Source: a virus. From it: DNA of 47,606 nt. How positions within the stretch are numbered: position 1 is the stretch's first letter; each line of letters opens with the position of its first letter. Below the pieces are notes generated by a model. The model made no database searches. It saw only the letters and a list, made by a program, of their open reading frames with translations, and was not told the DNA's origin. The position numbers and the translations under genes are program-made. The stretch is taken from IMG/VR virus record IMGVR_UViG_3300042549_007687, positions 1 through 47,606 of that record, one strand, 5' to 3'. This document shows positions 11,105 through 43,289 of the stretch, one piece after another.

Positions 11105-11125
11105 ACACTACATTATAAATAGTGT
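11105..11125 (-). terminator. Intrinsic terminator after terminase; carries TATAAATA motif
   Basis: On the minus strand ACACTA and TAGTGT pair as a six-base stem with a nine-base loop, followed by TTTTT. It begins two bases after the terminase stop. The plus-strand TATAAATA at 11114-11121 lies in the loop and right arm, and the same arrangement recurs at 18924-18946 and 43273-43289. It may act as terminator, promoter or both. Confidence 0.5.
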
Positions 11126-11126
11126 A

Positions 11127-12713
11127 TTATCCTAATAACCACGAAATATTCTCTTTTTTTCCGTTAATATCCATTTCGTATGGATTTTGTGGCATGTTAT
11201 TGTTCGTAAATACATGACCAACAACATTGTACTTAGTATTGTCCAATGCCATCTTCGTCAGTTCTATGCCCTCCTGGCGCAAACGGAGGGCGGTGTCCCG
11301 CACCCACAGACCAATACACAATGCTATCGTCAAATCATCATTGTATCCAGACAATGCCTCTGGTCTACCATTCTTCCAAATAAAAGTTTCTAACTCAGCA
11401 CACATGCGAGATGATCGAACAGTAAAACTATTATCTAACATATATTCTTTTAATCTAGCAATAATCAATGGACGGGTTCGTTGTGAAGTAGTAAATCCAG
11501 GTACCATACTTTTTTCTTCTGCCCGATATCGTCCTGTCATTTGGTGTTCTACATCGACATATTGTAAATCTTTGGACATATAAAATAGATTCTTATATCC
11601 ACGATCAATCACTTGTTGAATGGCATTCCATCCGATAGAACTATTTTCTGGAATAAGCAGTGCATCGTTATATTCCGTAGCAATTGACACCAGCATGTTA
11701 CCAAACTGCTTGGTTTCTACCTTTCCCTTGTATTCTGCCACCTGCGTGGATGTTTCCACATCAATCACATGGAATGCTGAATAATCTTCTCCGTCCCCTC
11801 TGGCAACGTCGGCGGACACTATATAGGATTTTCCAGGTCGTGGATATTCCCATATCCATGTATTTCCATCAAATCCACCTTTAGTAATCGGTTCTTGAAC
11901 AAAGGTAGTTTTATAAAACTCGATAATTTCAGGAGGAACTACTGTATTACCTGAGAAAATAAATGATGCGTCATGTTCTTGCGCCGCTTGCAGTTCTCCC
12001 ATTAATTCTGTCTGACGGTCACGCCATGCTTGATCTCGTTCTGGGTGTACTCGCCAATCTAACAAAATAGAATTGAAATTATTGGATTTTGTTTCTGCTT
12101 GCTGCCACATTTTGTGAAAGAAATTACCAACACCGTTTGGAGTAGAGAGTAATACAGCCTGACCACCAGTTGACAAAGTACTGGATGCCGCCGTCCAGAT
12201 AATATCAGCATCATCGATAAATGCTGCTTCGTCAAGAATCAAAAGAGACAAGGCTTCGGAACGGCCGGCGTCTTTACTACTTGCGACGGCTTTAATTTGA
12301 GATCCATTTGTAAATTGTAAGGATAATTTGTTATCTGTTACAATTTCACCTCGGAGCCAAACTGGAAGATTCTGATGCATAAATCGAACCTTGGTCACCA
12401 GATTCTTGGCGGTTTCTTGTTTGGTAGCAATAACTAATATATTTTTATCGTTATGAAACAACAACATCCATAGTGCATATCCGGCGACCAATGTGGAAAT
12501 TCCAATCTGGCGACCCTTAAGTACAATATTATAATCGTTATTTCTAAAATCAATTAGTGCATTTTTTTGATAATGATATAAATCAAACAACACTCGTCCA
12601 CGAACAGGATGTTGAATGTATGAATATTTTGTCAAGAAATACGACGGATCTAATGCGCATTTCTTATATTCTTCTTTGATACGATCTCGTAATTGTTGCG
12701 TTGAGGTATTCAT
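11127..12713 (-). CDS. 17: Terminase large subunit (gp17-like)
   Basis: ATP-driven DNA packaging motor and headful nuclease. 528 residues from the ATG at 12713, preceded by AAGGT eight bases upstream and four bases after the previous stop. ATPase: variant Walker A KGRQIGIST at 66-74, Walker B LLILDEAAF at 157-165, with the coupling STPNGVGNFF at 190-199. Nuclease: first metal aspartate in SADVARGDG near 301, then an ENSSIGWNAI segment and a C-terminal GYNDDLTIAL motif supplying the last aspartates. These match T4 gp17. T4 gp16, the small subunit, was not found nearby. Confidence 0.93.
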   Translation of the reverse strand: MNTSTQQLRDRIKEEYKKCALDPSYFLTKYSYIQHPVRGRVLFDLYHYQKNALIDFRNNDYNIVLKGRQIGISTLVAGYALWMLLFHNDKNILVIATKQETAKNLVTKVRFMHQNLPVWLRGEIVTDNKLSLQFTNGSQIKAVASSKDAGRSEALSLLILDEAAFIDDADIIWTAASSTLSTGGQAVLLSTPNGVGNFFHKMWQQAETKSNNFNSILLDWRVHPERDQAWRDRQTELMGELQAAQEHDASFIFSGNTVVPPEIIEFYKTTFVQEPITKGGFDGNTWIWEYPRPGKSYIVSADVARGDGEDYSAFHVIDVETSTQVAEYKGKVETKQFGNMLVSIATEYNDALLIPENSSIGWNAIQQVIDRGYKNLFYMSKDLQYVDVEHQMTGRYRAEEKSMVPGFTTSQRTRPLIIARLKEYMLDNSFTVRSSRMCAELETFIWKNGRPEALSGYNDDLTIALCIGLWVRDTALRLRQEGIELTKMALDNTKYNVVGHVFTNNNMPQNPYEMDINGKKENISWLLG

Positions 12714-12717
12714 ATAT

Positions 12718-13395
12718 TTACCTTGTGACCGCCACTCCAACTACTATTCCGGCCAACACGCCCACCGCCAACGATGTCTTTCGACTCGGTAACGGTATTC
12801 CTAAAAATTTATTTGGATTTTTAGGTGGTGGTGGGAGTTGTTTTAACATAGCCTGTAAACTATCCCCTCGTTGCGTGGCAAATAACAACCCAGTATTAAT
12901 TAATTGTAATTGTTCATCTTTATTACCAATTATCTGTTTTTGGTCAGTGACAATTTCTTCTGTGGTTGTTAGTTGTGTTTTTAAATTACCGATGATGGTA
13001 TCTTGTGTAGCGATCACTACATGTGGAACATCATCGGATTTGGCGTTTATCAAATTTTGTTCTAACGATATTAGTTGTGTTTTACTCTTTTCTTTTTGTT
13101 TTTCCTTAGAAGAAACCGATACATTTAATTGTTGAATAATAACATCTTTCTTTCTTGCACTGTCCGCTAGTTCAAGAATTTGATGTTGTAATGAATCTGC
13201 ATACCGTGTGGTGGTTTGTGCGTTTTCTTTAAATTGTTTGTATTCGGTAATGTATTGATCCATTTTATCCGTACCTTTACAATTTCCCATAGTAAATGCA
13301 AGGAACGCCAACACACCCATAATAACAAGTTGTGCGGTTTGTGGTAATCCTTTAAATGCTTGGGTAGTTTTGATTACCCGGTTAGGTAATTTCAT
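12718..13395 (-). CDS. Membrane coiled-coil protein with two membrane segments
   Basis: About 225 residues. GGAG lies six bases before the ATG at 13395. A hydrophobic segment near residues 24-40 (QLVIMGVLAFLAFTMGNC) ends in a Cys that could be a weak lipobox. A long coiled coil follows from about 45 to 185, with many Gln/Lys/Glu heptads, then a Pro-rich PPPPKNPN hinge and a second hydrophobic segment at the C-terminus (LAVGVLAGIVVGVAV). This layout could span the periplasm, as spanins do, but no spanin family is clearly recognised. Its position between the zinc protein and terminase does not favour lysis. The start overlaps the stop of the gene before it. Confidence 0.55.
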   Translation of the reverse strand: MKLPNRVIKTTQAFKGLPQTAQLVIMGVLAFLAFTMGNCKGTDKMDQYITEYKQFKENAQTTTRYADSLQHQILELADSARKKDVIIQQLNVSVSSKEKQKEKSKTQLISLEQNLINAKSDDVPHVVIATQDTIIGNLKTQLTTTEEIVTDQKQIIGNKDEQLQLINTGLLFATQRGDSLQAMLKQLPPPPKNPNKFLGIPLPSRKTSLAVGVLAGIVVGVAVTR

Positions 13396-13966
13396 CATAT
13401 TCTCCGGCGTTTACCTTAGATAAATGTTCTTTAAACTCATCAATTTCTTTCAGTAAATCTTTTTTAACAGTATCCAAATCAATATTCCATTTTTCCATCA
13501 TTAAGATTTTTTCATTATCCGCATGAATAAATTCTGGATGTGTTACATTATTGTAGTAATCTTGTAATTCTTGAATTTTATCTGTGAGCCAGTCGATGTG
13601 ACTACGCTTTCCACGAGCCACCATTTCTTGGTGCCAACGACCAGAAATTTTTAATTCCATTTCTTCTTTTAACATGCACTCATGACAATATCCGGTCTTT
13701 CGATATGCACGAAGATTATGTCCGTTCAATGGGGTATCGCATTTTGGACACCACCACGGTGTTTTAGCACTATCTAATTTTGTGACGGATTGCACCAATC
13801 CGTCTTTTTTAGTCCATGTTCTTCCGTGTGGATCATTCCACACATCACCGTCTTTTCGTTCTACCGGCACAGGTTTGTATCCAAATGTAAGTTTGGAATC
13901 TTCCTTACGCATAACCTCACCAATTTTTCGTCGTGTATCGTTTAATGCTTTTTCATTTTGTGACAT
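13382..13966 (-). CDS. Zinc-ribbon protein of unknown function
   Basis: 194 residues. GAGGG lies four to five bases before the ATG. Two CxxC pairs, WCPKCDTPLNGH and GYCHEC, form a zinc ribbon between about residues 70 and 97. The N-terminal part is basic and the C-terminal half is a charged helix ending DEFKEHLSKVNAGEYDEIT. Similar zinc-ribbon proteins are common in T4-like phages without assigned roles. It overlaps the coiled-coil gene by 14 bases and follows the large fusion gene, whose stop is 11 bases upstream. Confidence 0.55.
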   Translation of the reverse strand: MSQNEKALNDTRRKIGEVMRKEDSKLTFGYKPVPVERKDGDVWNDPHGRTWTKKDGLVQSVTKLDSAKTPWWCPKCDTPLNGHNLRAYRKTGYCHECMLKEEMELKISGRWHQEMVARGKRSHIDWLTDKIQELQDYYNNVTHPEFIHADNEKILMMEKWNIDLDTVKKDLLKEIDEFKEHLSKVNAGEYDEIT

Positions 13967-13977
13967 ATAACCCTCGT

Positions 13978-16900
13978 TTATGTTTTTGCAAATAACATCG
14001 CTCGTTGTTTACTACCAAAATATCGTACTTGATTCTTTTTATTTTTACCACCAAAGTTACCACCTTCAGTTTCCCAGGTTTCTCCGGGTTTGTAAAATGA
14101 TGGATCTTTTGGCTTTGGTGTTTGTTTTTTTGTTCTTGCAACTTTTGGTTTTTCTGGTGATACGGGTTGTTTTGTTTTTACCATCGTCGGTTTTGCTGCG
14201 TTATCACCACCATATTGTTGTGTTAATTTTAATGCTTCTTCGGCGTCGGTGGTAACTTTTACAATTTTTTTAAATACATCTTGATTAAATTTACCATATA
14301 TCATCGTAAAAATTTCTTGTTTTGCTCTGTCCGTAATATTTGGGTCACCCATAATTGCACGGACTTGTGTACCGCTGATATTTTTACCCTTAAGTTGTAA
14401 TTGCATTTCCGGAGCAATAATAAAATATCCTTTATCCGCATATCCCGTTCTTTCTTTTTCAGGAACATCTTCGTAATTTTGAAAATACTTACCACCAGTT
14501 AATCGTTCGGAGTCCTTTTGACTGACTGCTGTAACATATACTGTATCGGATGGTAATTTTTCCAATATTTCTTTTGGTGCATATGGGTTTTTTACTTGTA
14601 CTACTTTATCTTCTGGGATATCAAACATTTGTGTCATAATATCTTTTTTATCAGTAAATCCAAATGGAGATTTTGTTGGGTCAGTTTTGTCTGATGATGC
14701 GATATACACACTATCCTCACCAAATTTTTTCACCAATGCTCTATAAATACTATAGTGACCGGCGTGGAACGGTTGAAATCGACCGGTAAAAATTGCTACG
14801 GTTTGTTTTTTACCAGTTGGTGTGGGTTGCGTTTGTTTGGTCGTTGTTTTTTCTTTTGATGGTTCTTCTGGTTCATCCACAATTTTTGCTTTACCACGAT
14901 CAAATTTCATCATACCCAATATTTGATTCACGGGAGCAAAGGTACCTGTAAATTTATATGGTTTACCATTATACATAAATACAATCCCTTCACTCGGGAC
15001 CACATTTTTTATACCCAAATCATCTAATCTTTCTATTTGTTGTTGCAGTGCCGCTAATTGATTTCTATCACCGGTATCACGGATAGATTTTATAGCGTTT
15101 AACAATTCTTGTTTTAAACTTTCTCCCGCTTCTGGATTATTTGCCGATAACAGGTTGGTTACTCGTTGTAATGTATCTACACCAACCCGTAAGAATACTT
15201 GTTCTAATGGGCGAACACATTGTTTTTGCATATTGACAAGTTGTTCTGCTTCAAATTCACGGAACCACTTTTTAGTTTCCGAATCTTCAAAATCTTTAAC
15301 GCCAATTGCTTTTTTATCTCCAGTTGCCCATCGGTTAATCAATCCATCAAATTGTTCTTCTGATAATTCCAATCCTTGAGTTTCTACTTGTCTTGCAATT
15401 TCTCGTTCCCACCATGTTTTCTTATAATCTTCCAATGTACTCTTATCATCAAGGTCAAATTCGTTTTGTAAACGACCAATTTCTGATCCATACTTTTTTA
15501 ATTTTTCTAAATTTCGAGCGGTATCAGCGTCATTAAACGAAATGACTTGTGGTCCTGATAATCCAAATGTTTGTTGTTGCTGAGCACTCACCCGACGAAG
15601 TTGTGTGTCCAGTACTTTACCATCGTCAATATTTCGTCCAACTTCATTACCATCTTTATCGTATTCAATCGTTCCATGAAATACTATAACAGGTTTGTCG
15701 TATGGAATAACATTTTTTGTATCCGGAAATATAACTTCTACATTCATAAACTTACGACCGTTACCAAACAATTGTTCTCGTTCTTGTTCGGGCAACGCAT
15801 CTACTGCTTTTTGTAAATCTTGCGCTGCACCACCAAAGGATTTTTCAATTGCTCCACGACCAGCAAACATTTGACGAATACCTGCTACATCTAATGCATT
15901 TCGACCAAAGTTTTTAATTTGTCCTTTATTACGAGCAAAGACGACTTGTCCATCTTTAACACTAAAGGTTAAATTTTGGCCGTCGAGTTTTTCGGTGACA
16001 GGTGCCTCAGCATCCAATCCCCCCACCAATCCTCGTTTTATCATTTCCTTAACATCGGTGAATGTTAATTCGTCATCTTCATATGGATGTGCCAAGTGTC
16101 CAGCAGCACCACCTTCTGATATTAATTGCCACGGTCCATTTGGAGCAAGTCCGTCATACAATTCCGATAAATACACATATTCTATATTTTCGTTCTTCTT
16201 ATCTCGCCCGTGGTCTTTTCTTGCTAATTGCCATTTACCACCCGTTGTACCATTTGGATGATGTACATCATGATTTTTCATCTTAGATTTACCATACCGT
16301 TTAACTGCTTTTTTACGATCACTATTACGAGTTACTCTATCGTCTTGTGTTTTTTTAAGATAACTTCGTACTTTTTCTGGGTGTCGCTTATTATATCGAC
16401 GCATTCGTTCTGTGCTTGACAGTGCTTCGGTATTGATGAATTCATCGTCTTGTTCAGGACCAATTGAGTATGGATACACCATTCCTGTTTCATCTTTTTT
16501 TACACTGTTAATATAAGTACGATATACCGCAGCTGCCGACACCTTACCAGCCGCTCGTGCCCGTTGTTCCATAGCTATAGCTGCTTGAATCTTGTGTGCA
16601 TGAGTACGACCACTACGGCGTATCTTGGATACACTTGCCGTAGCATCGTCTACTGTTGCAAATTTTAACCCGTGTATAGTACCTTTGGGATTTTCATCTG
16701 TGTACAGATCACTATGTTTTTTACTGTTGGCTTGTTGTCCTGGTTTTCTTGCCACTCTGTTCTCTTCTTCTACTCCCTCGTCACCACCACCACCATCACC
16801 ACCAGTATCACCACTATCTGTTGGTGGTGTTGGTGGTGTTGGTGGTTCTTCTTTTGGTTGTTCACCAGTTTTCATTATATGTGGATACAAAGGATAGAAA

Positions 16901-17085
16901 AATCCATAGCGTTTAATTTTTTGTTTAGCTTTTTTACGCTTTTTGTTTGCTTCTTCTAAAGTATCGGCAGTAGTGATAGATAATTCTTCCACAAGATCAG
17001 GTGCGAGTTTTTCGACCAAAAAATTGTGTTGCTCAATATAATCATTTAATATTACTACTTGTTCAAAAAGTTTATCTAAATTCAT
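13978..17085 (-). CDS. HNH-like / polynucleotide-ligase-like / nucleotidylyltransferase fusion protein
   Basis: 1,035 residues in three parts. N-terminal 1-300: a helical start, a Pro/Gly/Asp-rich linker (80-110), then a His-rich HDVHHPNG motif at about 272-279 with DHGRD near 291, possibly an HNH-type nuclease. Middle 330-740: ligase-superfamily motifs, namely motif I EKLDGQN with the candidate adenylated Lys366, FARNKGQ (motif Ib-like) at 383, FMNVEVIFP (III), SEGIVF (IV) near 698 and KFTG (V) near 711. C-terminal 760-930: a nucleotidylyltransferase fold with GRFQPFHAGH at 768-777 and ISGTQVR at 903-909, as in NMN adenylyltransferases. Its ATG overlaps the previous stop by four bases. Substrate unknown. 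Confidence 0.78.
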   Translation of the reverse strand: MNLDKLFEQVVILNDYIEQHNFLVEKLAPDLVEELSITTADTLEEANKKRKKAKQKIKRYGFFYPLYPHIMKTGEQPKEEPPTPPTPPTDSGDTGGDGGGGDEGVEEENRVARKPGQQANSKKHSDLYTDENPKGTIHGLKFATVDDATASVSKIRRSGRTHAHKIQAAIAMEQRARAAGKVSAAAVYRTYINSVKKDETGMVYPYSIGPEQDDEFINTEALSSTERMRRYNKRHPEKVRSYLKKTQDDRVTRNSDRKKAVKRYGKSKMKNHDVHHPNGTTGGKWQLARKDHGRDKKNENIEYVYLSELYDGLAPNGPWQLISEGGAAGHLAHPYEDDELTFTDVKEMIKRGLVGGLDAEAPVTEKLDGQNLTFSVKDGQVVFARNKGQIKNFGRNALDVAGIRQMFAGRGAIEKSFGGAAQDLQKAVDALPEQEREQLFGNGRKFMNVEVIFPDTKNVIPYDKPVIVFHGTIEYDKDGNEVGRNIDDGKVLDTQLRRVSAQQQQTFGLSGPQVISFNDADTARNLEKLKKYGSEIGRLQNEFDLDDKSTLEDYKKTWWEREIARQVETQGLELSEEQFDGLINRWATGDKKAIGVKDFEDSETKKWFREFEAEQLVNMQKQCVRPLEQVFLRVGVDTLQRVTNLLSANNPEAGESLKQELLNAIKSIRDTGDRNQLAALQQQIERLDDLGIKNVVPSEGIVFMYNGKPYKFTGTFAPVNQILGMMKFDRGKAKIVDEPEEPSKEKTTTKQTQPTPTGKKQTVAIFTGRFQPFHAGHYSIYRALVKKFGEDSVYIASSDKTDPTKSPFGFTDKKDIMTQMFDIPEDKVVQVKNPYAPKEILEKLPSDTVYVTAVSQKDSERLTGGKYFQNYEDVPEKERTGYADKGYFIIAPEMQLQLKGKNISGTQVRAIMGDPNITDRAKQEIFTMIYGKFNQDVFKKIVKVTTDAEEALKLTQQYGGDNAAKPTMVKTKQPVSPEKPKVARTKKQTPKPKDPSFYKPGETWETEGGNFGGKNKKNQVRYFGSKQRAMLFAKT

Positions 17086-18908
17086 CGTCTTGAACCCGAG
17101 AAGAAGGTTGGTATTGATTGGATATTTAAATCCAACGCGTTATTATTGATATCAAACAAGTCAGTTTTAAATACTAAACTTGCAGTTGTTTGTGTCGTGT
17201 TAGGTACTGTGATTGTGACTTCACCAGGACTAAATGCATATTCTTCAGCAACCTTTAATGAAATGTTTGCAATTTGCCAAAATCCATTGTTAATAACAAA
17301 TCGCAATCCCGCATTACCAACTCGTGGAACCGTGAAGTTAAATGTTTTGTTTGGAAAGTATGCTACTTTTTCTTTTGTACTAACAGATGCTATTTTTTGT
17401 CCGAATATATTGTCGCCCACTATAGCAGATCCAGTTAAATACACATCCATTACATATTGACTTGAAGTAAATGCATATGACGCAGAAGTTGTATATACAT
17501 AACTATTGAACTTCAATGTATATTCCGATGTTGGGAACAGATCAACTTCTTTACGAGTACCAATGAAATAACTACTAGTAGTTGTTACGGCGTATCCAGC
17601 ATCTAACATATAATTGTTATCACGACTCAAACTGATGTGCGTTGCTGCATTTATAGTATCGTCACCATACGAAGTATCTGGTATTCCTGACCCCGTAACA
17701 TTATGTGCATACCAACTCGCAGTTAATATCGATAATGTATTAAATACTCCGATTGATTGTTCTCTATCATCTTGATCCGTTGAACTTGTTATTAATAATT
17801 CACCTACTCGTGTCGGAGTATCTGCAACAAAAGCAAAATCTGTTTGAGAACCGGCTTGTCTATTGGAAGTTTTAATTCTAAAAATTTCACCACTGATCGT
17901 ATCCAAATTGATAATACGCAGTTTTGCGAACGATAATATACTACCCGTTGTTAAAATAGAACTTTCACTTACATAATAATATTGTATAGAACCAGTAATG
18001 GATTTTGCTGCTCTAACATATGTCGTTGCGGACGCCGTATATAAATTTTCACCAATTTCATACTGTCCATTTCTAATTGGTGTAATATTTAATACACTAT
18101 TATCTACAGAACTTGTAATATTTGTGTCGGTAAATGACTTTGATGCGTTTAATAATGAAAGTGGTAAATTTAGTGATGCTGTGTGAATTTGTGTAATTTC
18201 TATAGATTCTGTTGTTGCTGGTATTGTACCTCTGTATGTTCTTTGCTGTAGGGTAAAACTACCAGTTATTTTTGGTGTCAAATGTGACGAGTTAAATTGA
18301 ATTGATTCACCATCATTTACAACGACAATATATCCTTGCTGTTTATTTAAAACAGATTTTGGTTTCAAAGTTATATTTGATATTGCAGTATTAATTACTG
18401 ATTGGCTTAATAACGAACCAGTTAGTAACAATTCATCTACTATTATTTCAGGTTGTTTTTTAATTCTAATTGGTGTTATATTTTTTGTTTTTGGTTCTAT
18501 AATAATTTTTTTCTGCCATCGTACATTTGGTGATCGTGTTACCTCGTTTGGTAATACTGTGTTGGTTTTTGCGTTTATTCTTGCGGTTCCTACGATGTTT
18601 AATAGAGCAGAACCACGGGGTGTATTTTCATACACTTCAACAACCACCAATCTCGCACCACCTTCTACAAATCCTCTAATTGCCTCAACATACAAACTAT
18701 TACCGTTAGAGTCTATAATTTCTATCAAAACCTCTGTGTTTGGTTTTAGTAGAGAAGTTCCAGATATTAAAAAAGCATTACGACCACCCGTAAACACACC
18801 AGATAATTGTTTTATATTAAAATATAAAGACTCAGGTCCAGTGTCGGTTATCAATACTGGTAATTGTGCTAGATTTTGTTTTGATAATGTTTTTTTAGTT
18901 CGTGGCAT
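17082..18908 (-). CDS. Tail fibre or tail structural protein
   Basis: 608 residues, rich in Ser, Thr, Ile and Asn with repeated beta-strand patterns and few cysteines. The C-terminal part (about 430-590) includes a jelly-roll-like segment (NTTQTTASLVFKTDLF, FVINNGFWQIANISLKVAEE) resembling carbohydrate-binding modules, which would fit a receptor-binding role. The N-terminus is basic (MPRTKKTLSKQNLAQ). No specific family recognised. A conserved hairpin motif with TATAAATA lies just upstream. Its stop overlaps the fusion gene start. It is separated from the other tail genes by the DNA metabolism genes. Confidence 0.55.
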   Translation of the reverse strand: MPRTKKTLSKQNLAQLPVLITDTGPESLYFNIKQLSGVFTGGRNAFLISGTSLLKPNTEVLIEIIDSNGNSLYVEAIRGFVEGGARLVVVEVYENTPRGSALLNIVGTARINAKTNTVLPNEVTRSPNVRWQKKIIIEPKTKNITPIRIKKQPEIIVDELLLTGSLLSQSVINTAISNITLKPKSVLNKQQGYIVVVNDGESIQFNSSHLTPKITGSFTLQQRTYRGTIPATTESIEITQIHTASLNLPLSLLNASKSFTDTNITSSVDNSVLNITPIRNGQYEIGENLYTASATTYVRAAKSITGSIQYYYVSESSILTTGSILSFAKLRIINLDTISGEIFRIKTSNRQAGSQTDFAFVADTPTRVGELLITSSTDQDDREQSIGVFNTLSILTASWYAHNVTGSGIPDTSYGDDTINAATHISLSRDNNYMLDAGYAVTTTSSYFIGTRKEVDLFPTSEYTLKFNSYVYTTSASYAFTSSQYVMDVYLTGSAIVGDNIFGQKIASVSTKEKVAYFPNKTFNFTVPRVGNAGLRFVINNGFWQIANISLKVAEEYAFSPGEVTITVPNTTQTTASLVFKTDLFDINNNALDLNIQSIPTFFSGSRR

Positions 18909-18923
18909 AAGTTCTCTTCGTGT

Positions 18924-18946
18924 TAACTACTCAATATAAATAGTTA
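18924..18946 (-). promoter_or_regulatory. Hairpin with TATAAATA element at unit boundary
   Basis: On the minus strand TAACTA and TAGTTA form a six-base stem with an eleven-base loop containing TTTATA; on the plus strand TATAAATA is at 18935-18942. It lies directly after the stop of the Mre11-Rad50 fusion gene and before the tail gene at 18908. There is no U-tract. It matches the elements at 11105-11125 and 43273-43289. I read it as a late promoter or RNA processing signal of the structural unit that follows. Confidence 0.4.
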
Positions 18947-21900
18947 TCACGATTGAATATAACTCCATCCGTCCTCTCGTTTGATTTCAATTAAATGATC
19001 TACCATATCTCGTACTGCATCTAAGTGACTAATAACGATTAGGAAATCAAATTGAGTTTTGAGAATACCGAATAGGGTGTGCATCGAACCCAAGTTCTCT
19101 GCGTCCAGTGTCCCCAATCCTTCGTCTACTATCATAAAATTAGATTTTGGTAGATTACTAGCGTTCATCAAGGCTACACGAATTGCCAAACTACTGATAA
19201 ACCGTTCCATTCCCGAACTGTTTTCTAGTGGCCAAATACGATCATAATCATAGTTTAATTTACCCACAATATTTTTCCCATCCACTTCCAACGAAATTGT
19301 GAAATCTACGATTTGTGTTAATATATTGTTTATTTCTGCCTCAATATTTGGAATTGCTTTACTCATTAGTTCGTATGGGATACCATCACGCCCAACTGCT
19401 TCCATATAGTATTTATACGCTTCGTAGGTATTCTCCAACTGTTCCGCTTCTTTAATCTGATTCATAATATCGGTCTTACTGGCCTCTAGAACGCGGATTT
19501 CTCCGTGGAGGTCACGAAGCACCTTTTCCAGATGATTAATTTGCTTCTTGCTACTCTCAATATCATGTTCCACATATTGAATATTCGCATCAATATTAAG
19601 ATTATGTTTGATATTTTCTTCATTTGCTCGATGAAGTTCAATGTCTTTGTTAATTTGTTCCACTTGCCGATCATACTTTTCAATCACGGTAATTAACTTT
19701 TGAATAGTTAATTCTTCTGATTGTGATTTGCGTTGTAATAATTGAATTTCTGTTTGTAATTCAATATATCGTTCATACTGTTCTACTCGTTCTTTCAACG
19801 GTTGTTTCTGAACTTCAATGTCTGTAATGGCGTCTTCCTGCTTCTTCTGTATGTCGTACAATTCTGATAACTCAAGTTTTACTTGTTTCGAATCATCAAT
19901 TACTGACTGATTATTAGTAACACAGACATCACAATTTGGATTATATTTATAACTTTCTAATTTTTCCTTAAACTTTTCCTTTTCTGCTATCTTGGATATC
20001 GTTAGTTTACACGCACCATTCCCCTTTTTAACTAGTTCAGATAAACGATTATATTCGTCAGTATCTCGTTTTAATTCGTCACCGACAAATAATTGTAGAT
20101 TTTTTGTTTTGTCGTGAATTATTTCCTGTAGATTGGTTAGTCGTACATCCACTTCCGCTTTATCTTTTTCGTTGACTGTGTACTGCCCAGTTGCGTTTTT
20201 TAAATCAGATTGTAACTTGGTAATATCCAATTCAATATTTGGTACTAGTTTCTTTTGATCCTGCCAATTCTTTAATTTCGTATATAATACTTCTCGTTCA
20301 TCTTTAACCTTCACAGAACTAGTTTCTACTCGTGTATGTTCATCACGAGAAATATCTAATTTGTTTTGTGTATCCGATAGTGTCTGAGTAAAATCTATCT
20401 TTTTGAATTTCTTCAATGCTCCAGAAATTTCTTTTATCTCATCATTTGCGGTGTCTGCTAACTTGTCAAAAATACTCAATCCCATAAACTGAATAAGTAA
20501 ATCCTTTCGTTCACTATGTGACTTGTCAATAAACAACGCATTACTAGTTTGCCCACTTAGTGCTGTCAATACGAAATCTTCATAACTACCCACATAATTA
20601 CGAATGTTAACATTGGTATCACGACGATCTTCTCCATTTAAGGATGTATGTGTGCCGTCGTTGTTTTCCTTCCAGAACGAAACATCAACTTTCACATCAC
20701 CAGTTTTCTTACGGGTACCGGTTCTACGAATATAAAAGATTTCATTGTTAATTTCAAACTTTAGTTGACAAGTAAATTCATCCTTACGATTATTCATAAT
20801 ATGATCACCACGGAATGCTCGTGGGGTCTTATCATATAAAGTAAAGATAAGCGCATCCATCGCAGAACTCTTTCCACTTGCGTTCTGTGCGAAGATACCG
20901 TAAATACCCCGCATTTTTCCAAAGTTAATAACATTATCTTCTCCGTAGGAGAACATATTAGAAAATTTCAATTGAAGCGGACGCCAATTTACATTACGAG
21001 AATGATCATCATGATTAATACTAGAATTGAGAGTATTGTTTACTTCCAATATTTGTTTCATCAAGTTTGGACTGATGGTATTATCGTATGTTCGTTCTAA
21101 CCAATCTTGAATAAGTGTATTTTGAATATTCATATTTTGAACATCCATAATTTCCAATCCACTCTTCAATTTTTCTCGTTCGGCGTTATCGTGCTTGGAT
21201 TTATTAATACTTAATTCAATAATATTATGTTGTTTTCTTAATACGGATACCAACTTCTTCACCCCAGTAGTATCCAATGCTCCTGTGAAAATACGCATAC
21301 GAACATTTTTTGGTACATCCACCAATACAGGAACCTTACCATTTTTAACATCCACTGTGTAATATCCAAAATTATTTGGTACTTCTTTAAAGAGATGCGT
21401 AAAATTTTGCATATCCCACAAACACCACCCATGATTATTTACGGTTTCACCATGATTTTGTTGGATAAGTGATGATGAATATACGATAATTGGTTTCCCC
21501 GTACCACGTTCTTGCAGAACTTGATACTTGTGAATATCCCCAAGCAATACCGCATCGAATCCATTAAATGTTGATACATCAACATGACGATTTGTAATGA
21601 CATATCGAGCATCTGTTTGCGCTCCGTGAACAGGTCCATGATATAATGCGACTTTCTTTTTCGATGTACAATCTTTGTACGAAGGCCACTTTTCCTTTTC
21701 ATCCAAAATAGAAAATACGGCAAAATCTGTATCTCCTACCTGATATACACCGGAGTGTTTGAGATAATGTAATCGATCATGATTAATACTTTTAATCAAC
21801 GGAGTCAAACTATCCAATCTGTTCATGTTGGACAAGTTCAAATCATGATTACCAGCAATCACTATTGTTGGGGCAATGTCAGCTAAATTCTTTAAAAATT

Positions 21901-22120
21901 CAGTTGCTAACATAACCATTTCAGGACTCATATCTGTTTTTGCGTGAACAATATCACCTGCAACAACAATAACCGAGTCAGTCAAATCTTCTTGGCGTAA
22001 CTGGTTATAGAGTGTTTCAAAACATTCCCGATATTCATCGTGTCGTTTAAATAATCGTATATGAATATCGGCAAGGTGTACAATTTTATTAAGTTTATTA
22101 ATACCAGCAATATATGTCAT
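18947..22120 (-). CDS. Fused Mre11-Rad50 recombination nuclease (gp47-gp46)
   Basis: 1,057 residues carrying in one chain what T4 makes as two subunits. N-terminal Mre11/gp47-type nuclease: HLADIH (15-20), AGDIVH (about 54-59), GNHD (90-93), a YHGPVHG segment (about 160) and LGDIHKYQ (about 193-200), the metal-binding phosphoesterase motifs. C-terminal Rad50/gp46 ATPase: Walker A ASGKSS near 414, long coiled coil with a zinc-hook CDVC at 730-733, signature SSGMERFISS near 968, Walker B FMIVDEG at 995-1001 and VISHLD near 1031. It processes double-strand breaks for recombination-dependent replication. ATGA overlap with the primase. Confidence 0.93.
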   Translation of the reverse strand: MTYIAGINKLNKIVHLADIHIRLFKRHDEYRECFETLYNQLRQEDLTDSVIVVAGDIVHAKTDMSPEMVMLATEFLKNLADIAPTIVIAGNHDLNLSNMNRLDSLTPLIKSINHDRLHYLKHSGVYQVGDTDFAVFSILDEKEKWPSYKDCTSKKKVALYHGPVHGAQTDARYVITNRHVDVSTFNGFDAVLLGDIHKYQVLQERGTGKPIIVYSSSLIQQNHGETVNNHGWCLWDMQNFTHLFKEVPNNFGYYTVDVKNGKVPVLVDVPKNVRMRIFTGALDTTGVKKLVSVLRKQHNIIELSINKSKHDNAEREKLKSGLEIMDVQNMNIQNTLIQDWLERTYDNTISPNLMKQILEVNNTLNSSINHDDHSRNVNWRPLQLKFSNMFSYGEDNVINFGKMRGIYGIFAQNASGKSSAMDALIFTLYDKTPRAFRGDHIMNNRKDEFTCQLKFEINNEIFYIRRTGTRKKTGDVKVDVSFWKENNDGTHTSLNGEDRRDTNVNIRNYVGSYEDFVLTALSGQTSNALFIDKSHSERKDLLIQFMGLSIFDKLADTANDEIKEISGALKKFKKIDFTQTLSDTQNKLDISRDEHTRVETSSVKVKDEREVLYTKLKNWQDQKKLVPNIELDITKLQSDLKNATGQYTVNEKDKAEVDVRLTNLQEIIHDKTKNLQLFVGDELKRDTDEYNRLSELVKKGNGACKLTISKIAEKEKFKEKLESYKYNPNCDVCVTNNQSVIDDSKQVKLELSELYDIQKKQEDAITDIEVQKQPLKERVEQYERYIELQTEIQLLQRKSQSEELTIQKLITVIEKYDRQVEQINKDIELHRANEENIKHNLNIDANIQYVEHDIESSKKQINHLEKVLRDLHGEIRVLEASKTDIMNQIKEAEQLENTYEAYKYYMEAVGRDGIPYELMSKAIPNIEAEINNILTQIVDFTISLEVDGKNIVGKLNYDYDRIWPLENSSGMERFISSLAIRVALMNASNLPKSNFMIVDEGLGTLDAENLGSMHTLFGILKTQFDFLIVISHLDAVRDMVDHLIEIKREDGWSYIQS

Positions 22121-23028: not shown

Positions 23029-23038
23029 AGTAATACTA

Positions 23039-23857: not shown

Positions 23858-24832
23858 TTATGTGTCAAACTTCACAATAAAAGTTTGTGGAACATTTAGT
23901 GTTCTCGGGATGGGTTGTGCTAGTTTCGCTACTGCAACCAATTCATAACCATTATACAAACCAATAGTTGTAATATACGGTGTTACTGAACCAGACTCAA
24001 ATAAATTATATAACGATTCACCAGGTATCACACTTCCAGTTCCATTTATTTCTACATATTTTTGCGCAACTGCTGATGAAGATGGATTGTAATTTAATTC
24101 ATAATCTGTGTATGTAACCGTTGTTGCTCCACTGACATATGATCCCGTAACGGAGTTAAAAAACTTCAAACTTGGATTATAATAACTTCTGTTAAATTCA
24201 TTCGGCTGTATGTTACACACAACTTTATTTTCATAAATTGTGGTTGATGACGAAAATGCCACTACAAGGGGAATGTACTCTTTTATTTGCAATCCATCGA
24301 TTGATATGGATTGTGTTGTTGCGGAAACATTCGGTTTTATTACGGCAATACCATGTTTATAAAAAATATTTCCAACTACATTTGACACATTATTTACATA
24401 TAATCTGCCATACCCGTCATCTAGTATTTTAGTAGATGATCCAGAAGTTTGCACACTAAATGTTGATTCTTTTACACCGTCACCAATTGCTTCGTTAGCT
24501 AAATTGAATACAAATAAGGAACCAGATGGAGTAAATTTTGTAATCGCAACTGATTCAGTACCATACCCAACAAATGACTTTGATGAATAAAAACTTGTAT
24601 TTAAAAATGTAAATAACTGATACGCATATACACCCGATTCATTTATATATCCCACATCAAAATCGTTTTGTTGAAAACTTATCCAGTTTTCCGGTGGTTG
24701 ATGTGCGATATCAATAGATACCTGGAGCGGATTATTCACCGCTCCAGATACTATTGTATAACTTTGTGATGCATATGCGACAAATGGTTCTTTCGAATAT
24801 CCATCACGGTCGAGAGGTTTGAGAACTCTCAT
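23858..24832 (-). CDS. Tail structural protein with conserved C-terminal module
   Basis: 324 residues, beta-rich, with a Ser/Thr/Gly/Val composition typical of tail proteins. The C-terminal 50 residues (PYITTIGLYNGYELVAVAK, then QPIPRTLNVPQTFIVKFDT) match the C-terminus of the neighbouring gene at 24882-26030, where HVYATTVGLYNNSKELLAVAK occurs, so the two share a module. GGGAGG precedes the ATG. A minus-strand TATAAATA lies 17 bases upstream. Function beyond a structural role is unknown. Confidence 0.6.
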   Translation of the reverse strand: MRVLKPLDRDGYSKEPFVAYASQSYTIVSGAVNNPLQVSIDIAHQPPENWISFQQNDFDVGYINESGVYAYQLFTFLNTSFYSSKSFVGYGTESVAITKFTPSGSLFVFNLANEAIGDGVKESTFSVQTSGSSTKILDDGYGRLYVNNVSNVVGNIFYKHGIAVIKPNVSATTQSISIDGLQIKEYIPLVVAFSSSTTIYENKVVCNIQPNEFNRSYYNPSLKFFNSVTGSYVSGATTVTYTDYELNYNPSSSAVAQKYVEINGTGSVIPGESLYNLFESGSVTPYITTIGLYNGYELVAVAKLAQPIPRTLNVPQTFIVKFDT

Positions 24833-24848: not shown

Positions 24849-24856
24849 TATTTATA
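24849..24856 (-). promoter_or_regulatory. T4-type late promoter box TATAAATA
   Basis: A minus-strand TATAAATA in the coding direction, between the two paralogous tail genes. T4 late promoters recognised by gp55 use exactly this box near -10. The start of transcription would be within about 10 bases of the ribosome binding site, which is short but workable. The gp55-like sigma factor encoded at 43.3-44.0 kb could use it. One eight-base AT match in AT-rich DNA can arise by chance. Confidence 0.4.
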
Positions 24857-24881
24857 ACTAACACTTACAAATTACTCGTTA

Positions 24882-26044: not shown

Positions 26045-26671
26045 TTATACTGTTGGTTTGGCCTTAACCGTAACAGTTACGGTCTTGGTTGCGCCTGTTA
26101 AATTATTGATAATTGTAAGTTGCGTTACACGATCAACTGTTAATTCTTTTGCTGTTAAATTAAATGTAAATCCTTGTACCACGACAGCATTTGCCGAAAC
26201 AGCTTGATTCGCGGTAAAGAATGGTGTAGTTGTACCCGTTGGTAATGGTGCACCAGTAGATATGGTGGAAATGGTTCCATCATACAAGATTGCGGTATAT
26301 CCAGCTGTTGCGAGTTCTGCGGTGGTTGTTGGATTCACCGTTACAGAGTCATTATAATTTAATGTGTATCCCGTAACACCCAACGAAATTGTTGGAATTT
26401 CTTTTGTACCACGATCCAACGATACTAACTTGTATCTCATAGATTGTGTTTCATCTGGTGATGCTTCCAGTACGGGCATATTTTCGATAATTGACCCGTA
26501 ATACGAAGAACCGAGTGGATGTGAAGTAGTATATAATGTATAATCTACCTCATCATCGGCCACAGCGAACTGTGTGATGTTGAATTGACTTTGACCTTTC
26601 GATAGTAATTCTCTACCTTTCTTGGTCAATATCGCATCAACAGTAATAGTTGAGTTGTTTAGATATCCCAT
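26045..26671 (-). CDS. Tail structural protein of conserved phage type
   Basis: 208 residues. The N-terminus MGYLNNSTITVDAILTKKGR, followed by QFNITQFAVADDEVDYTLY, is a conserved signature of structural proteins in T4-like aquatic phages. The rest is beta-rich with a KTVTVTVKAKPTV C-terminus that could be an Ig-like strand pair. I cannot assign a T4 equivalent. It precedes the two paralogous tail genes. Upstream is a TATAAATA element at 26703-26710. Confidence 0.65.
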   Translation of the reverse strand: MGYLNNSTITVDAILTKKGRELLSKGQSQFNITQFAVADDEVDYTLYTTSHPLGSSYYGSIIENMPVLEASPDETQSMRYKLVSLDRGTKEIPTISLGVTGYTLNYNDSVTVNPTTTAELATAGYTAILYDGTISTISTGAPLPTGTTTPFFTANQAVSANAVVVQGFTFNLTAKELTVDRVTQLTIINNLTGATKTVTVTVKAKPTV

Positions 26672-26702: not shown

Positions 26703-26710
26703 TATAAATA
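26703..26710 (-). promoter_or_regulatory. Intergenic TATTTATA element before tail gene
   Basis: In the 57-base gap before the gene at 26671, the minus strand reads ACATATTTATATT; the plus strand has TATAAATA. It resembles the elements at the boundaries 43280, 18935 and 11114 but does not form the same hairpin. Candidate late promoter or RNA signal. Confidence 0.3.
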
Positions 26711-31717: not shown

Positions 31718-31729
31718 ATAATTCCTTGC

Positions 31730-33664: not shown

Positions 33665-33672
33665 ACTTTACC

Positions 33673-34551: not shown

Positions 34552-34554
34552 ATA

Positions 34555-35991: not shown

Positions 35992-36023
35992 ATTATGTTA
36001 CTTCCGTTGCAGTAAGTTTATTA

Positions 36024-39010: not shown

Positions 39011-39018
39011 GCGTTATC

Positions 39019-39456
39019 TCAAATTGTAGTTAATCTTCCAGAACTGATCAAGCTTCCTTGCGCAACTTCACCAATTCTTAATTGTACAGATTGTACCGCC
39101 AAAGGATTATTTACAAACCCATATTGGACATACAATAAAATACTATTATCATTTAAAAATGTTTCTTCGTTTAATATTTGTACTTGTCGTAATCTCAAAT
39201 ACGGCATCCACTGGGTTACGGCATTAAGCACATACTGCTGTGCTAGCTCTTGAACTTCCGTGGTTTTTTGTTCAAACAGTAATTTTGGGAGATCACAACC
39301 AAATCCAGGATTACCTACTCGTTCTCCTTTCATAGTTAACATCAAATTAATAAATTTTGACTTTTCGTTTTCCAACGCATCCGCTGTGGTTGCAAAATAC
39401 CCACGAGAAGATCGTTGTAATGGTAACGGAGATCCCAAATATACTGTTTTTGACAT
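39019..39456 (-). CDS. 25: Baseplate wedge subunit (gp25-like)
   Basis: 145 residues; T4 gp25 has 132. GERVGNPGFGCDLPKLLFE is the core gp25/gpW motif, preceded by ALENEKSKFINLMLTMKGE and followed by a strand-rich C-terminus (NDNSILLYVQYGFV). Gp25 is the wedge protein linking gp6 to the hub. It is followed directly by the gp6-like gene. There is no lysozyme motif; in T4 gp25 the supposed lysozyme activity is not structural. Confidence 0.9.
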   Translation of the reverse strand: MSKTVYLGSPLPLQRSSRGYFATTADALENEKSKFINLMLTMKGERVGNPGFGCDLPKLLFEQKTTEVQELAQQYVLNAVTQWMPYLRLRQVQILNEETFLNDNSILLYVQYGFVNNPLAVQSVQLRIGEVAQGSLISSGRLTTI

Positions 39457-39459
39457 ATA

Positions 39460-39822
39460 TTACTTACCAAGCCCCATTTTTTTCATGAGTTGGCTGTAAT
39501 CACGATTAATAGCGTCCACGGCGGGTTTTACATTGGGATTGTTAATATCTACCGTGGCATTGTCTGGCATGATCATTCTGTCCGTACTTGCCGATAACGT
39601 GTCACCCATTCGTTCCAGTCCCATCATAGCTGCTAATTTTGAACGGTCAATAGAAGATTTTTTGGTAGGAGCAGATTCTACAATTCGTTGGGTACCTTTA
39701 ATTTCTGCTATAGCTTCGTCCAGTATAGCAGGAAGTAACTTCCGAACAGTTTTTTCCACCGATTCGTCCATTTGTTCCTTTACCAATTCTTTTACATATG
39801 CTCGAAATAATGCTTTGTCCAT
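39460..39822 (-). CDS. Small protein upstream of gp25 gene
   Basis: 120 residues. TAAGGAG seven bases before the ATG is a strong binding site. The N-terminus is an amphipathic charged helix (MDKALFRAYVKELVKEQMDE), then a mostly helical middle and a C-terminal MMGLERMG segment. No family recognised. The gene is between the coiled-coil protein and gp25, separated from the former by 77 AT-rich bases. A baseplate assembly role is a guess from position. Confidence 0.5.
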   Translation of the reverse strand: MDKALFRAYVKELVKEQMDESVEKTVRKLLPAILDEAIAEIKGTQRIVESAPTKKSSIDRSKLAAMMGLERMGDTLSASTDRMIMPDNATVDINNPNVKPAVDAINRDYSQLMKKMGLGK

Positions 39823-39899
39823 TCGTATCTCCTTAAAAAATTATAACCTTTTAGACCCTTTATTTAAATATCAAACTAATGTGAAATTAAACAATTATA

Positions 39900-41453
39900 T
39901 TATACTTTTTGGTATGTCACTGTTACTAATATGTACACCCCGTCAACATTTCCAATTCTACTTAAAATATCATATTTAATATTAGGATATTGTTGTGTAA
40001 ATTTATCTATTGACAACGACATTTGTCTGGCGGTTGTCAATGTGGCCCCCTTCCCAATACCAACTATAAAATTTTTTATATTATTTGAGTTTAAAAACTG
40101 CGTTATACTCACATTTAATTCGTCTGTTTTCGTTTTTTCTGCGACAGTCATATTATCTACCACAGCAGAACTTTTTATATCACTACCAACTAATTGTCCA
40201 TTTAAAATTTGTTGCGCAGATTGTATTCCCGACGCTGCTCGATTTACCAGAGAGTTTGCTGCATCCAAACTTGTTAATGTTGAATTTCGTAATCGTTCTG
40301 CTTTTTTTTGCGCTTCTCGTATTTTTAATACTGTAGCATTTTGAGAAGCTGCCGCGGTATCTATGGTGCTTTCAATTTGTTGTTGTGCAGCAGTTACACC
40401 TGAACGAACTCTTCGAATCTGATCATATGTCTGATTAGTGACTGTATCTATTGCTGCATTTTTCGCTGCTATTACTTGTTCGTATCTTGCCACTGCTTCT
40501 GAAAATGCCTTTCTGGTATTTGCTATTGTTTTCTGGAAGGCGTCTGCATTTTTATTATCTCTAATTTTTTCTTTTGATTCTTTTCTTGCTTGCTCCAACG
40601 CAACCTTCGATGTTTTCTGCGATTCTTTTTTAATTTTATCGACTAAATCTCGAATTTTCATCCGCAAATTAGATTTACGAACATTGAATGTTGGAAGTTT
40701 TGGTAACTTTGGAAATTTAAGTTTTCGTGGTATTTCTTTAAATTTATTAAGTAGTTTTAAAAACTTATCATAATTATCAGAAAATTTCTTTTGAAATTCT
40801 TGTTTTTTTCTGCGTAATTTATCCCACAATTCATATCGTTTCTTATATAATTCATTAATTCCTTCTAATTTAATTTTTAGTTGGTCGTACGAATTAGCAT
40901 AAGCTTCAAGTTGATCTTGGTATTGTCTAATAACATCCGCCGAAGCACCAACATTTGTTAACGATTGAATTTTGGATGATAATGCAGATATTTGAGCTTC
41001 TGTTTTACTCAATTGATTTGTTAATTGAGTTTTTTGTAGTCCCAGTGCAAGTATATCTTTCGCATATTCTGCCGTTTTTGCTGTTAGTGGGTCTACACCT
41101 TTTAAAATTCTAGATTTTGCTTTGGATCTAGTATTTCTATTTGTAGTTGTTTCACCTTCAATTTGAGAGTTTGTTCCTCTTCGTCGTTGAACAACACTAT
41201 CAATTATTTCCGGTGTAAAGTTTGATAATTGGGTAGTAATATTTTTTGAATCTTCTTCTCGTTTCAACTTACCAGATAATTCCAATAATGAATTAGAAAC
41301 AGGTATATTTTGTGATTCTTGTTGCCGAGTCAATGCTACAATATTTGTTTTTGTCGCATTCGTTAAATTTGGCATTTTACTCACCGCAGTTTGTGCCAAA
41401 CTTAAAGTATTACGAATTTTATTGATAGATGATGAGATTTTATTTAAAGACAT
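39900..41453 (-). CDS. Long coiled-coil tail protein
   Basis: 517 residues, mostly helical and Lys/Gln/Ala-rich. Coiled-coil regions run from about 130 to 215 and 255 to 400, interrupted by a Pro/Lys segment (PRKLKFPKLPKLPTFNV) at about 240. A separate C-terminal domain follows (NNIKNFIVGIGKGATLTTAR, then IGNVDGVYILVTVTYQKV). It could be a tape measure or hub-associated protein as in T4 gp29, gp48 or gp54, but no motif decides. It comes after the gp5-like hub gene and before gp25. Confidence 0.5.
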   Translation of the reverse strand: MSLNKISSSINKIRNTLSLAQTAVSKMPNLTNATKTNIVALTRQQESQNIPVSNSLLELSGKLKREEDSKNITTQLSNFTPEIIDSVVQRRRGTNSQIEGETTTNRNTRSKAKSRILKGVDPLTAKTAEYAKDILALGLQKTQLTNQLSKTEAQISALSSKIQSLTNVGASADVIRQYQDQLEAYANSYDQLKIKLEGINELYKKRYELWDKLRRKKQEFQKKFSDNYDKFLKLLNKFKEIPRKLKFPKLPKLPTFNVRKSNLRMKIRDLVDKIKKESQKTSKVALEQARKESKEKIRDNKNADAFQKTIANTRKAFSEAVARYEQVIAAKNAAIDTVTNQTYDQIRRVRSGVTAAQQQIESTIDTAAASQNATVLKIREAQKKAERLRNSTLTSLDAANSLVNRAASGIQSAQQILNGQLVGSDIKSSAVVDNMTVAEKTKTDELNVSITQFLNSNNIKNFIVGIGKGATLTTARQMSLSIDKFTQQYPNIKYDILSRIGNVDGVYILVTVTYQKV

Positions 41454-41459
41454 GTTATA

Positions 41460-42863
41460 TTAAATTTGAATACCATTCCCAAGTAATCCTGAAGACGATT
41501 GAGTTTTTTCATTTACTTTCACAACGAAATTATCATTCGATGACCACCGTGCATTAAGAGGTCCAGGTATAACAAGATATCGCATATATGTCATCCACAA
41601 TCTAGCAACAACTGCTGGATTTATTGTTCCCGTTGGTCCAAGCACCAGAGGTTGCGTACTCATTATAACTTTTAACAATTCTAAAAAGAATTTTTTGAGT
41701 GTGGTTCCCATAACAATTGGTTCTGCTCGGTCATTATATCCACCTAGATATGTTTCATTACTTCTAATAACCACATAACGACCGGCGTCAATATTAACAT
41801 CCGCTCCACCTGCGAAAAATATATCCAGTTTTGCTTTACCTATCATATTTTGTTTTGCAAGTAAAGTTATATCTTGCAAAGTTCTTTCGGTAATCGGTCC
41901 TTCGGAATCTATAGTTATCCCCTGTCGTAGGGAATTCATATGAATTCCTTCTTTACTAAACAGATAGATTGACTTTAATTTAGAATTAAGCGTGATTGTG
42001 TCAGAATTAACTAAAAGTTGTGCACCATCAAATGAAGTTGGTTTTGATACCATAGAAAACAAAAAAGTTTCACTCTGTTTTGTTGCCGGCGTAAATGGTA
42101 ATACTTCGTCGGATGTTAAATATATGGATGTTGCGTCGGCATCTAGATTTTCTATGGTAAGAGAAGATTTCTTATCTTCGACTTTACCCGACTCTTTTGA
42201 TTGACCTGTTCGTAATACAATATTTGGTGATTGTCTGGATGGTGTTTCGTGCATTTGACTAGTACCAAATCGAATACTATGTCCATATCGTCCTTGGTAA
42301 ATTACATCACCTTCGAAATTTTTTACAGATTGTACCTTGTCGGCTTCTTTAAATTGATGTCCAGGTTTGGTTTTTATCTGCGCGGGTGTTTTGTATATAC
42401 CTTCTCTGGCTTCTCTTTGTCGATCTCGTATTTTTCCGGGTTGCGCTGCCTCTACCATATCACCTAATAATGGTCTTGCATTTTGTGTTATATGTCTATC
42501 CACATTAATTGGTCCGACATAATAATATTTACCCAGTGCTTTGAAAACCAATACAAATTCACCAACCAGAGGAAATGTTGATTGATATGGATTTAATGGA
42601 TCGGATTCATATAAATCTTTTCGTCGTGTTACCTGATCCAACTCCAACAATCTAATTTTAACTCGACCAGCAGTTTTTGCTGCTAGTTTGTCATCTCGTA
42701 TATTAGTACCAGATCCTTCTTCATTGATAATAATAGATTCTACTTGAGCAACACCATATATAAATGGTTGTGTAACCACCCCACCACCTGTGTTTTGTCC
42801 AGGTTTTAGTGTGGATAGTCCCGATTGTCTATTGGTTACTCGAAATCCACCATTTGATGTCAT
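41460..42863 (-). CDS. Baseplate hub/puncture protein (gp5-like)
   Basis: 467 residues. An N-terminal OB-fold-like segment (AGRVKIRLLELDQV, NPYQSTFPLVGEFVLVF) and a Gly/Arg-rich segment (GDVIYQGRYGHSIRFGT) resemble the hub OB-fold region of gp5-like proteins; later TIENLDADATSIYLTSDE and VNSDTITLNSKLKSIYLFS have the repeated-strand look of a needle-like beta helix. No lysozyme domain is obvious, unlike T4 gp5, so peptidoglycan cutting may be done by another protein. Its ATG overlaps the stop of the gene upstream. Confidence 0.6.
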   Translation of the reverse strand: MTSNGGFRVTNRQSGLSTLKPGQNTGGGVVTQPFIYGVAQVESIIINEEGSGTNIRDDKLAAKTAGRVKIRLLELDQVTRRKDLYESDPLNPYQSTFPLVGEFVLVFKALGKYYYVGPINVDRHITQNARPLLGDMVEAAQPGKIRDRQREAREGIYKTPAQIKTKPGHQFKEADKVQSVKNFEGDVIYQGRYGHSIRFGTSQMHETPSRQSPNIVLRTGQSKESGKVEDKKSSLTIENLDADATSIYLTSDEVLPFTPATKQSETFLFSMVSKPTSFDGAQLLVNSDTITLNSKLKSIYLFSKEGIHMNSLRQGITIDSEGPITERTLQDITLLAKQNMIGKAKLDIFFAGGADVNIDAGRYVVIRSNETYLGGYNDRAEPIVMGTTLKKFFLELLKVIMSTQPLVLGPTGTINPAVVARLWMTYMRYLVIPGPLNARWSSNDNFVVKVNEKTQSSSGLLGNGIQI

Positions 42864-43258
42864 TTCTTAACTCTGTTCGATACTGCGAATATTGCTTCGT
42901 CTAATTCTTCTGAATCTTGTTTAATTTCATCAAATTCCGCCTTCAAATCACCCAATAACGCTTGCTTCTCTGCTTCGGTAAGTAGTCCGTCTATGTTTTC
43001 ACCCTTGGACGCTGCCCCGACAATGCGTTGTGCGATTTGTGCAATACGAACTAAATGTTCGTCGTTTTTCACATTGACCTCAATAAAATCTTTTATAACA
43101 GGTCCGATTACCGCGGCATCTTCTGGTGTACGAATAAGCATAACCAACTTAGAGACAAATGTATTAATTTGTTGTCTCTTAGAGTCGGTATTCTTATAAA
43201 TTTCTGAGAAGAGGTCGGACAGTGTTTTTCCGTCAAATATTTCTTTATCTAAACTCAT
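42860..43258 (-). CDS. Small helical acidic protein before hub gene
   Basis: 132 residues, helical, with a DAAVIGPVIKDFIEVNVKN segment and a C-terminal LDEAIFAVSNRVKK. CGGAGG stands about five bases before the ATG. No family recognised. It is the first gene of the tail unit behind the sigma factor, with the hairpin element between them. It overlaps the hub gene by four bases, so it may be a hub assembly factor (inference). Confidence 0.5.
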   Translation of the reverse strand: MSLDKEIFDGKTLSDLFSEIYKNTDSKRQQINTFVSKLVMLIRTPEDAAVIGPVIKDFIEVNVKNDEHLVRIAQIAQRIVGAASKGENIDGLLTEAEKQALLGDLKAEFDEIKQDSEELDEAIFAVSNRVKK

Positions 43259-43272
43259 TATAACCTCCGATT

Positions 43273-43289
43273 ACTATTCTATAAATAGT
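43273..43289 (-). promoter_or_regulatory. Hairpin with TATAAATA element after sigma factor gene
   Basis: On the minus strand ACTATT and AATAGT form a six-base stem with a five-base loop; the plus strand has TATAAATA at 43280-43287. It lies in the 37-base gap between the sigma factor gene and the first tail gene. There is no U-tract. It matches the elements at 18924-18946 and 11105-11125 and may be a late promoter or an mRNA processing site. Confidence 0.4.

Follow-up and report, generated by a model that had tools for sequence, protein, structure and literature searches.

A putative sense-strand late promoter with a variant box, and a candidate gp55-like sigma factor, in a little-known T4-like phage branch

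We analyzed a 47,606-nt stretch of viral DNA (IMG/VR record IMGVR_UViG_3300042549_007687, positions 1 to 47,606), hereafter the window, in which a short element recurs at gene boundaries. Our results make it very likely that this element is a late promoter on the sense strand with a variant box, TATTTATA.

The element shares the strand of the genes

A sequence-only reading of the window had described a composite of a six-base inverted repeat and a plus-strand T4 late box. We found the composites at all three of the proposed sites, namely 43273-43289 (ACTATTCTATAAATAGT), 18924-18946 (TAACTACTCAATATAAATAGTTA), and 11105-11125 (ACACTACATTATAAATAGTGT). The orientation had seemed puzzling, as the T4 box would run against the genes. 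The puzzle is resolved by the placement of nearly all of the window's substantial genes on the minus strand. The gene strand at the three composites reads CTATTTATA, with the start codon 21, 26, and 26 nt downstream, and the sense reading of the element in the window is (A/C)TATTTATA, 21-31 nt ahead of a start codon (Table 1). The earlier proposal of a divergent late promoter read as TATTTATA thus holds in substance but loses its divergent part, since the box shares the gene strand and faces the next gene.

The window has three copies of TATAAATAGT, all of them on the plus strand, where only 0.42 would be expected; at least three copies were reached in 2 of 100 shuffles. Plain TATAAATA is not overrepresented (11 vs 8.0 expected); what is unusual about it is its placement, at short gaps directly upstream of genes. 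The six-base inverted repeats are singly weak, with p ~0.03-0.05 each when compared with a shuffled left flank.

The genes upstream of the sites were assigned as before: the terminase and the Mre11-Rad50 fusion (PF00149 and PF13476) were confirmed, and a sigma factor before the 43.28-kb element is backed by its predicted fold, as described below. The first gene after each window element, earlier taken to belong to a structural or head-cargo unit, had no family match. Among the sites thought to be related, the one at 26703 proved to be a perfect box, and the orthologue of the gene that it precedes is also preceded by a box in Flavobacterium phage immuto; the sites near 1670 and near 5915 were weak. 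The minus-strand site proposed at 24849 is better read as an overlapping sense TAGTTATA.

Table 1. Positions of predicted promoter boxes, repeats, and associated genes in the window
Feature	Position	Strand	Remarks
Putative late promoter box TATTTATA	43280..43287	-	21 nt ahead of start codon, gene 42860-43258
Inverted repeat ACTATT/AATAGT around box	43273..43289	-	Alone weak in window
Putative late promoter box TATTTATA	18935..18942	-	26 nt ahead of start codon, gene 17082-18908
Hairpin TCGTG-a-TAACTA / TAGTTA-a-CACGA enclosing box	18918..18952	-	Upstream of start codon
Putative late promoter box TATTTATA	11114..11121	-	26 nt ahead of 51-aa ORF
Inverted repeat ACACTA/TAGTGT	11105..11125	-	In close kin only
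Putative 51-aa ORF, downstream of terL element	10932..11087	-	Read from sequence
Putative late promoter box TATTTATA, perfect	26703..26710	-	31 nt ahead of gene 26045-26671
Variant box TAGTTATA	24853..24860	-	20 nt ahead of gene 23858-24832
Possible box TACTTATA, low confidence	10667..10674	-	35 nt ahead of gene 10302-10631, within preceding ORF
Candidate late sigma factor, 247 aa	43296..44039	-	Predicted gp55-like sigma-2 domain and extra C-terminal helical domain

Some other genes of the window may be recorded here. The Mre11-Rad50 gene is one 1057-aa ORF (18947-22120, minus strand) that fuses Mre11-like and Rad50-like domains, which are separate genes in Melnitz. A phage ribosomal protein bS21 (PF01165) is encoded among the head genes at 1704-1922 on the minus strand (compare the freshwater bS21 phages, PMC9723584). 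A 1035-aa protein (13978-17085, minus strand) has a cytidylyltransferase-like domain near its C terminus (PF01467), and its remainder is without a match.

The box is conserved in relatives and enriched between genes

A terminase search found 399 relatives; 80 loci were kept. Of the 79 examined, nearly all have a coding-strand TATTTATA or TACTTATA downstream of the terL stop codon. In close kin of the window the box lies within ACACTA..TAGTGT, whereas more distant kin have unrelated flanks (e.g. TTATATTTATATATTGATAT) and keep the box alone, indicating that the conserved core of the terL site is the box and not the hairpin. Nearly all distinct relatives keep the box after the sigma gene, and so does immuto, whose orthologous protein, gp118, shares 36% identity with that of the window.

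Genome-wide counts were made on seven sequences (the window, G001-G004, G008, and 100 kb of immuto), with genes called by a simple longest-ORF method. Between genes, TAYTTATA was found 83 times in sense and 10 times in antisense. This gives no support to an antisense promoter, one of the earlier suggestions. An unbiased count of 8-mers between genes placed TATTTATA among the most enriched words (69 vs 9.1 expected, with 8 on the opposite strand), and the enrichment was present in all seven sequences.

Across 60 nonredundant sites, information was found at the box and at the preceding base, which is A or C in >90%, and no -35 signal was detected. The box has the form of an isolated -10-like element, and in the freshwater group most boxes are single and stand 20-40 nt ahead of the start. 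Single changes to C or G at position 3 and to T at position 8 are tolerated, with most other single changes showing little strand bias; TAGTTATA was counted 7 times in sense and 2 times in antisense.

The same method returned TATAAATA as the top word in the late region of T4 (11:6), TATAAATA in Melnitz (9:1), and NATAAATA in S-PM2 (10:0). It gave TATTTATA in immuto (25:7) and Mel-JY01 (6:0), and TTATTTAA as the overrepresented word of RM378. Upstream of genes in the window's group, sense-strand TATAAATA is rare. According to its annotated record, immuto carries nearly all of its genes on the plus strand, and perfect boxes with a preceding A or C number 28 on that strand and 3 on the other. Immuto boxes stand directly ahead of the terL, portal, tail sheath, tail tube, baseplate hub, and tape measure genes, a tail spike gene, and a tail fiber gene, among others.

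A TerL tree separates RM378, immuto, Mel-JY01, and the freshwater group from T4, S-PM2, and Melnitz, in a topology with long branches for RM378 and T4 and a root placed at the midpoint only. Searching annotated phages for near-identity to the window gave no match. Mel-JY01 (L205, PP395634.1), recorded from the cyanobacterium Microcystis, has terminase, sigma factor, and box as in immuto, unlike cyanophages, and its true host may deserve a check.

A candidate late sigma factor

Because searches of Pfam and PHROGs with the window's candidate sigma protein and a PDB sequence search with the profile of its family found no match, a fold comparison was needed. When the AlphaFold model of the protein (pLDDT 75) was compared with solved structures, the top row was T4 gp55 in the promoter open complex (PDB entry 7d7c; Z 9.9, 114 residues). 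This row was tied with other sigma factors, which dominate the fold list, and the Foldseek E-values for the model were weak. A match to phrog_234, the gp55 family, was obtained for the immuto orthologue only, and it was weak (E 0.008). An hhalign comparison of the sigma family with gp55 was marginal (E 5e-4, probability 32%) and weaker with a larger alignment. A search with the C-terminal domain by itself gave only weak matches, with Z 5.1 for the best and sigma domain 4 among the structures matched several times; we suggest that the modeled domain is possibly sigma-4-like.

Homologues of the candidate sigma factor are present in immuto, Mel-JY01, and RM378, whose boxes are of the TATTT type; at the threshold used, T4, Melnitz, and S-PM2 yielded no homologue. 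The apparent lack of the sigma gene in G001 is explained by the contig, which ends within the neighboring block. Gene 43296-44039 probably encodes a diverged gp55-type sigma factor that reads the box, with co-occurrence as the basis for linking the two. The RM378 homologue is gp020 (NP_835607.1; L212:2032-2826), which was matched with E 1.2e-13 and is annotated as "hypothetical".

The solved gp55 structure shows stacking of A(-12) on Y97, contacts between A(-9) and both N13 and H95, and a bond from A(-8) to T99 (PMC7892883). In the box described here, -12 and -8 are still A, and -10 and -9 are T. In our reading of three alignments (A1-A3), Y97 and T99 of gp55 correspond to the invariant Y95 and S97 of the candidate sigma factor, which has Q17 in place of N13 and F93 in place of H95. 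This suggests that the residues expected to contact the changed base are themselves changed. The replacement of H95 by F alone would not explain the change in the box, because S-PM2 has F at this position yet keeps A at -9.

Hairpins at a subset of sites

The sequence-only reading had also considered an RNA processing or termination hairpin. As a general reading the terminator fits poorly: the stems are A+T-rich, and the T run is missing at two of the three sites, with TTTTT following only the terL site, behind an A+T-rich stem. Terminator scans of the window returned none of the three elements. The RNA hairpin survives in changed form, for a subset of sites at which the box lies within a hairpin upstream of the ribosome site.

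The 18.9-kb hairpin comprises 11 bp with one mismatch (z -3.9 vs shuffled 5' arms) and overlaps the Mre11-Rad50 stop codon; several close relatives have a base pair in place of the mismatch. Another clade has a different stem at this site, CTAACTCAA/TTGAGTTAG around the box with TCTCG/CGAGA beyond, the inner stem being broken in about half of that clade. After the sigma gene, 23 distinct sequences of a sister clade have a 9-bp repeat around the box, and in 4 of the 23 one pair is changed on both sides. Perfect repeats reaching 16 bp, their loop holding the box, occur at single sites in relatives.

As a class, box sites showed more 5'-arm pairing than control starts (p 8e-4), but most individual box sites have no strong hairpin, and the mean predicted accessibility of the ribosome site at boxes was not lower. 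A strict contiguous-stem test gave a modest difference in the group (mean stem 4.53 vs 4.24 permuted, reached by 0.4% of permutations) and no excess in immuto. The terL hairpin, which is lost in distant relatives, was dropped as a general feature. We judge the hairpin to be real at some of the sites; its likeliest role is control of translation, to which we give a little less than an even chance.

A second promoter class

In the cluster of small genes at ~61-76 kb of immuto (L120, L119), GTTG..TATATTTAGGTA takes the place of the box. TATATTTAGGTA lies ~20 nt after GTTG, with ~17 copies before small genes, and we take this class to resemble the two-part promoters of Bacteroidota. The freshwater group (G001-G008) has a separate two-part promoter, CTTGACA-N17-TATATT, of which one copy in the window (47427-47398, minus strand) lies ahead of the UvdE gene. 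Two promoter classes per genome would fit early and late control, a timing that we infer from the sequences. A Bacteroidota host for the window's group, considered in view of immuto infecting Flavobacterium, was set aside given the CTTGACA-N17-TATATT form of the group's two-part promoters; their difference from those of immuto hints at a different kind of host.

Searches for a sliding clamp

Profile searches of immuto with PF02916 and PF09116 gave no match, nor did PF09116 in Mel-JY01 and RM378. The clamp searches were positive for T4 and, with PF09116, for Melnitz. A gp45 clamp was not found in the relatives searched, the metagenomic ones among which may be fragments, and a bacterial beta clamp was not found either.

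Discussion

We propose that a gp55-type phage sigma factor, the product of gene 43296-44039, would bring host RNA polymerase to (A/C)TA(T/C)TTATA, an isolated -10-like box that lacks a -35. If RNA starts are placed as in T4, they would fall a few nucleotides past the box, giving a leader of ~15-30 nt. At a subset of sites, of which 18.9 kb is the best, the box lies inside an inverted repeat. Read-through RNA from the upstream gene may there form a hairpin that adjoins or covers the ribosome site, so that its translation would be poor, and RNA begun at the box would lack the 5' arm of the hairpin.

A -10-like sequence can be read by a host sigma factor, and the link to the phage protein is indirect, so the box might instead be the promoter of a housekeeping or alternative sigma factor of the host, with no need for that of the phage. 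We consider this unlikely in view of the missing -35, the separate two-part promoter classes, which differ between hosts where the box does not, and the co-occurrence of TATTT-type boxes and the candidate sigma family in the same phages. The element could also be mainly an RNA device, i.e. a hairpin for processing, stability, or translation control in which the conserved TATTTATA is a loop and not a promoter, and both the box-in-loop hairpins at several sites, up to 16 bp, and the 5'-arm pairing above that of control starts agree with this idea. However, most boxes have no hairpin, distant relatives that lose the hairpin retain the box, and its shape and position are those of an isolated -10 element found in sigma-carrying phages, leaving such a device quite improbable. 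An antisense or divergent T4-type late promoter on the plus strand would account for the exact T4 consensus, TATAAATA, found there, but this is hardly credible when the minus strand carries nearly all substantial genes, the orientation of the box tracks the genes in every genome, and distant relatives keep the sense box, also in the form TACTTATA, the complement of which differs from the T4 box.

A sense-strand late promoter, our preferred reading, has much in common with the late promoters of T4 (gp55, gp33, gp45). Both have an isolated 8-bp -10-like box with no -35 upstream of virion genes, and the candidate sigma factor is phage-encoded with a predicted gp55-like sigma-2 fold. Unlike T4, the center of the box is TT (TATTTATA) and not AA (TATAAATA), the candidate sigma factor is ~60 aa longer with its extra C-terminal domain, and no gp45 clamp gene was detected. 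We do not class the element as a T4 late promoter, because tests for the exact box and for the clamp were both negative. The late promoters of S-PM2 and Melnitz (NATAAATA and TATAAATA) are likewise isolated sense boxes before structural genes; unlike the window's group, they keep the central AA, and Melnitz has gp45.

For the hairpins there is a precedent in T4 genes e, soc, 49, and I-TevI, where the late promoter lies within a hairpin that forms over the ribosome site in long transcripts (PMC3014915). In gene e, late promoters lie close ahead of the ribosome site, and the RNAs that they yield are without the 5' part of the hairpin and are well translated (PMC3014915). Some of the boxes described here similarly lie within, or next to, the 5' part of a hairpin that precedes the ribosome site, although the box is a different one and the hairpin is supported at a subset of sites and known from sequence.

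The window shares its aquatic, T4-like character with the Far-T4 phages (reference RM378, PMC4360716) and is grouped with RM378 by the TerL tree, whereas the overrepresented word of RM378, TTATTTAA, differs from the window's box. Roux et al. detected no T4 transcription-regulation genes in Far-T4 in 2015 and stated that the transcription of these phages needs further experiments (PMC4360716). We found no earlier description of the box, or of promoters of Immutovirus or Far-T4, in the literature outside subscription papers. Our analysis adds a defined box, a candidate sigma factor whose family spans immuto, Mel-JY01, RM378, and the freshwater group, and changed residues where contact with the changed base is expected, with no clamp gene detected.

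In T4, the textbook example, a sliding clamp couples late transcription to replication. It is conceivable, though we advance it only tentatively and with more doubt than confidence, that this branch runs late transcription without a gp45-type clamp. It would use a longer gp55-like sigma factor, whose C-terminal domain is possibly sigma-4-like and which would have co-diverged with the box (AA to TT at -10/-9), and embedded hairpins would help early silence. If this were true, late genes would not be clamp-coupled to replication as they are in T4. With the box and the candidate sigma factor, late gene control becomes testable in a little-known T4-like branch for which none was described before, through the cultured phage immuto (on Flavobacterium), and in this widespread, aquatic phage group the box may serve as a marker for late units in metagenomic contigs.
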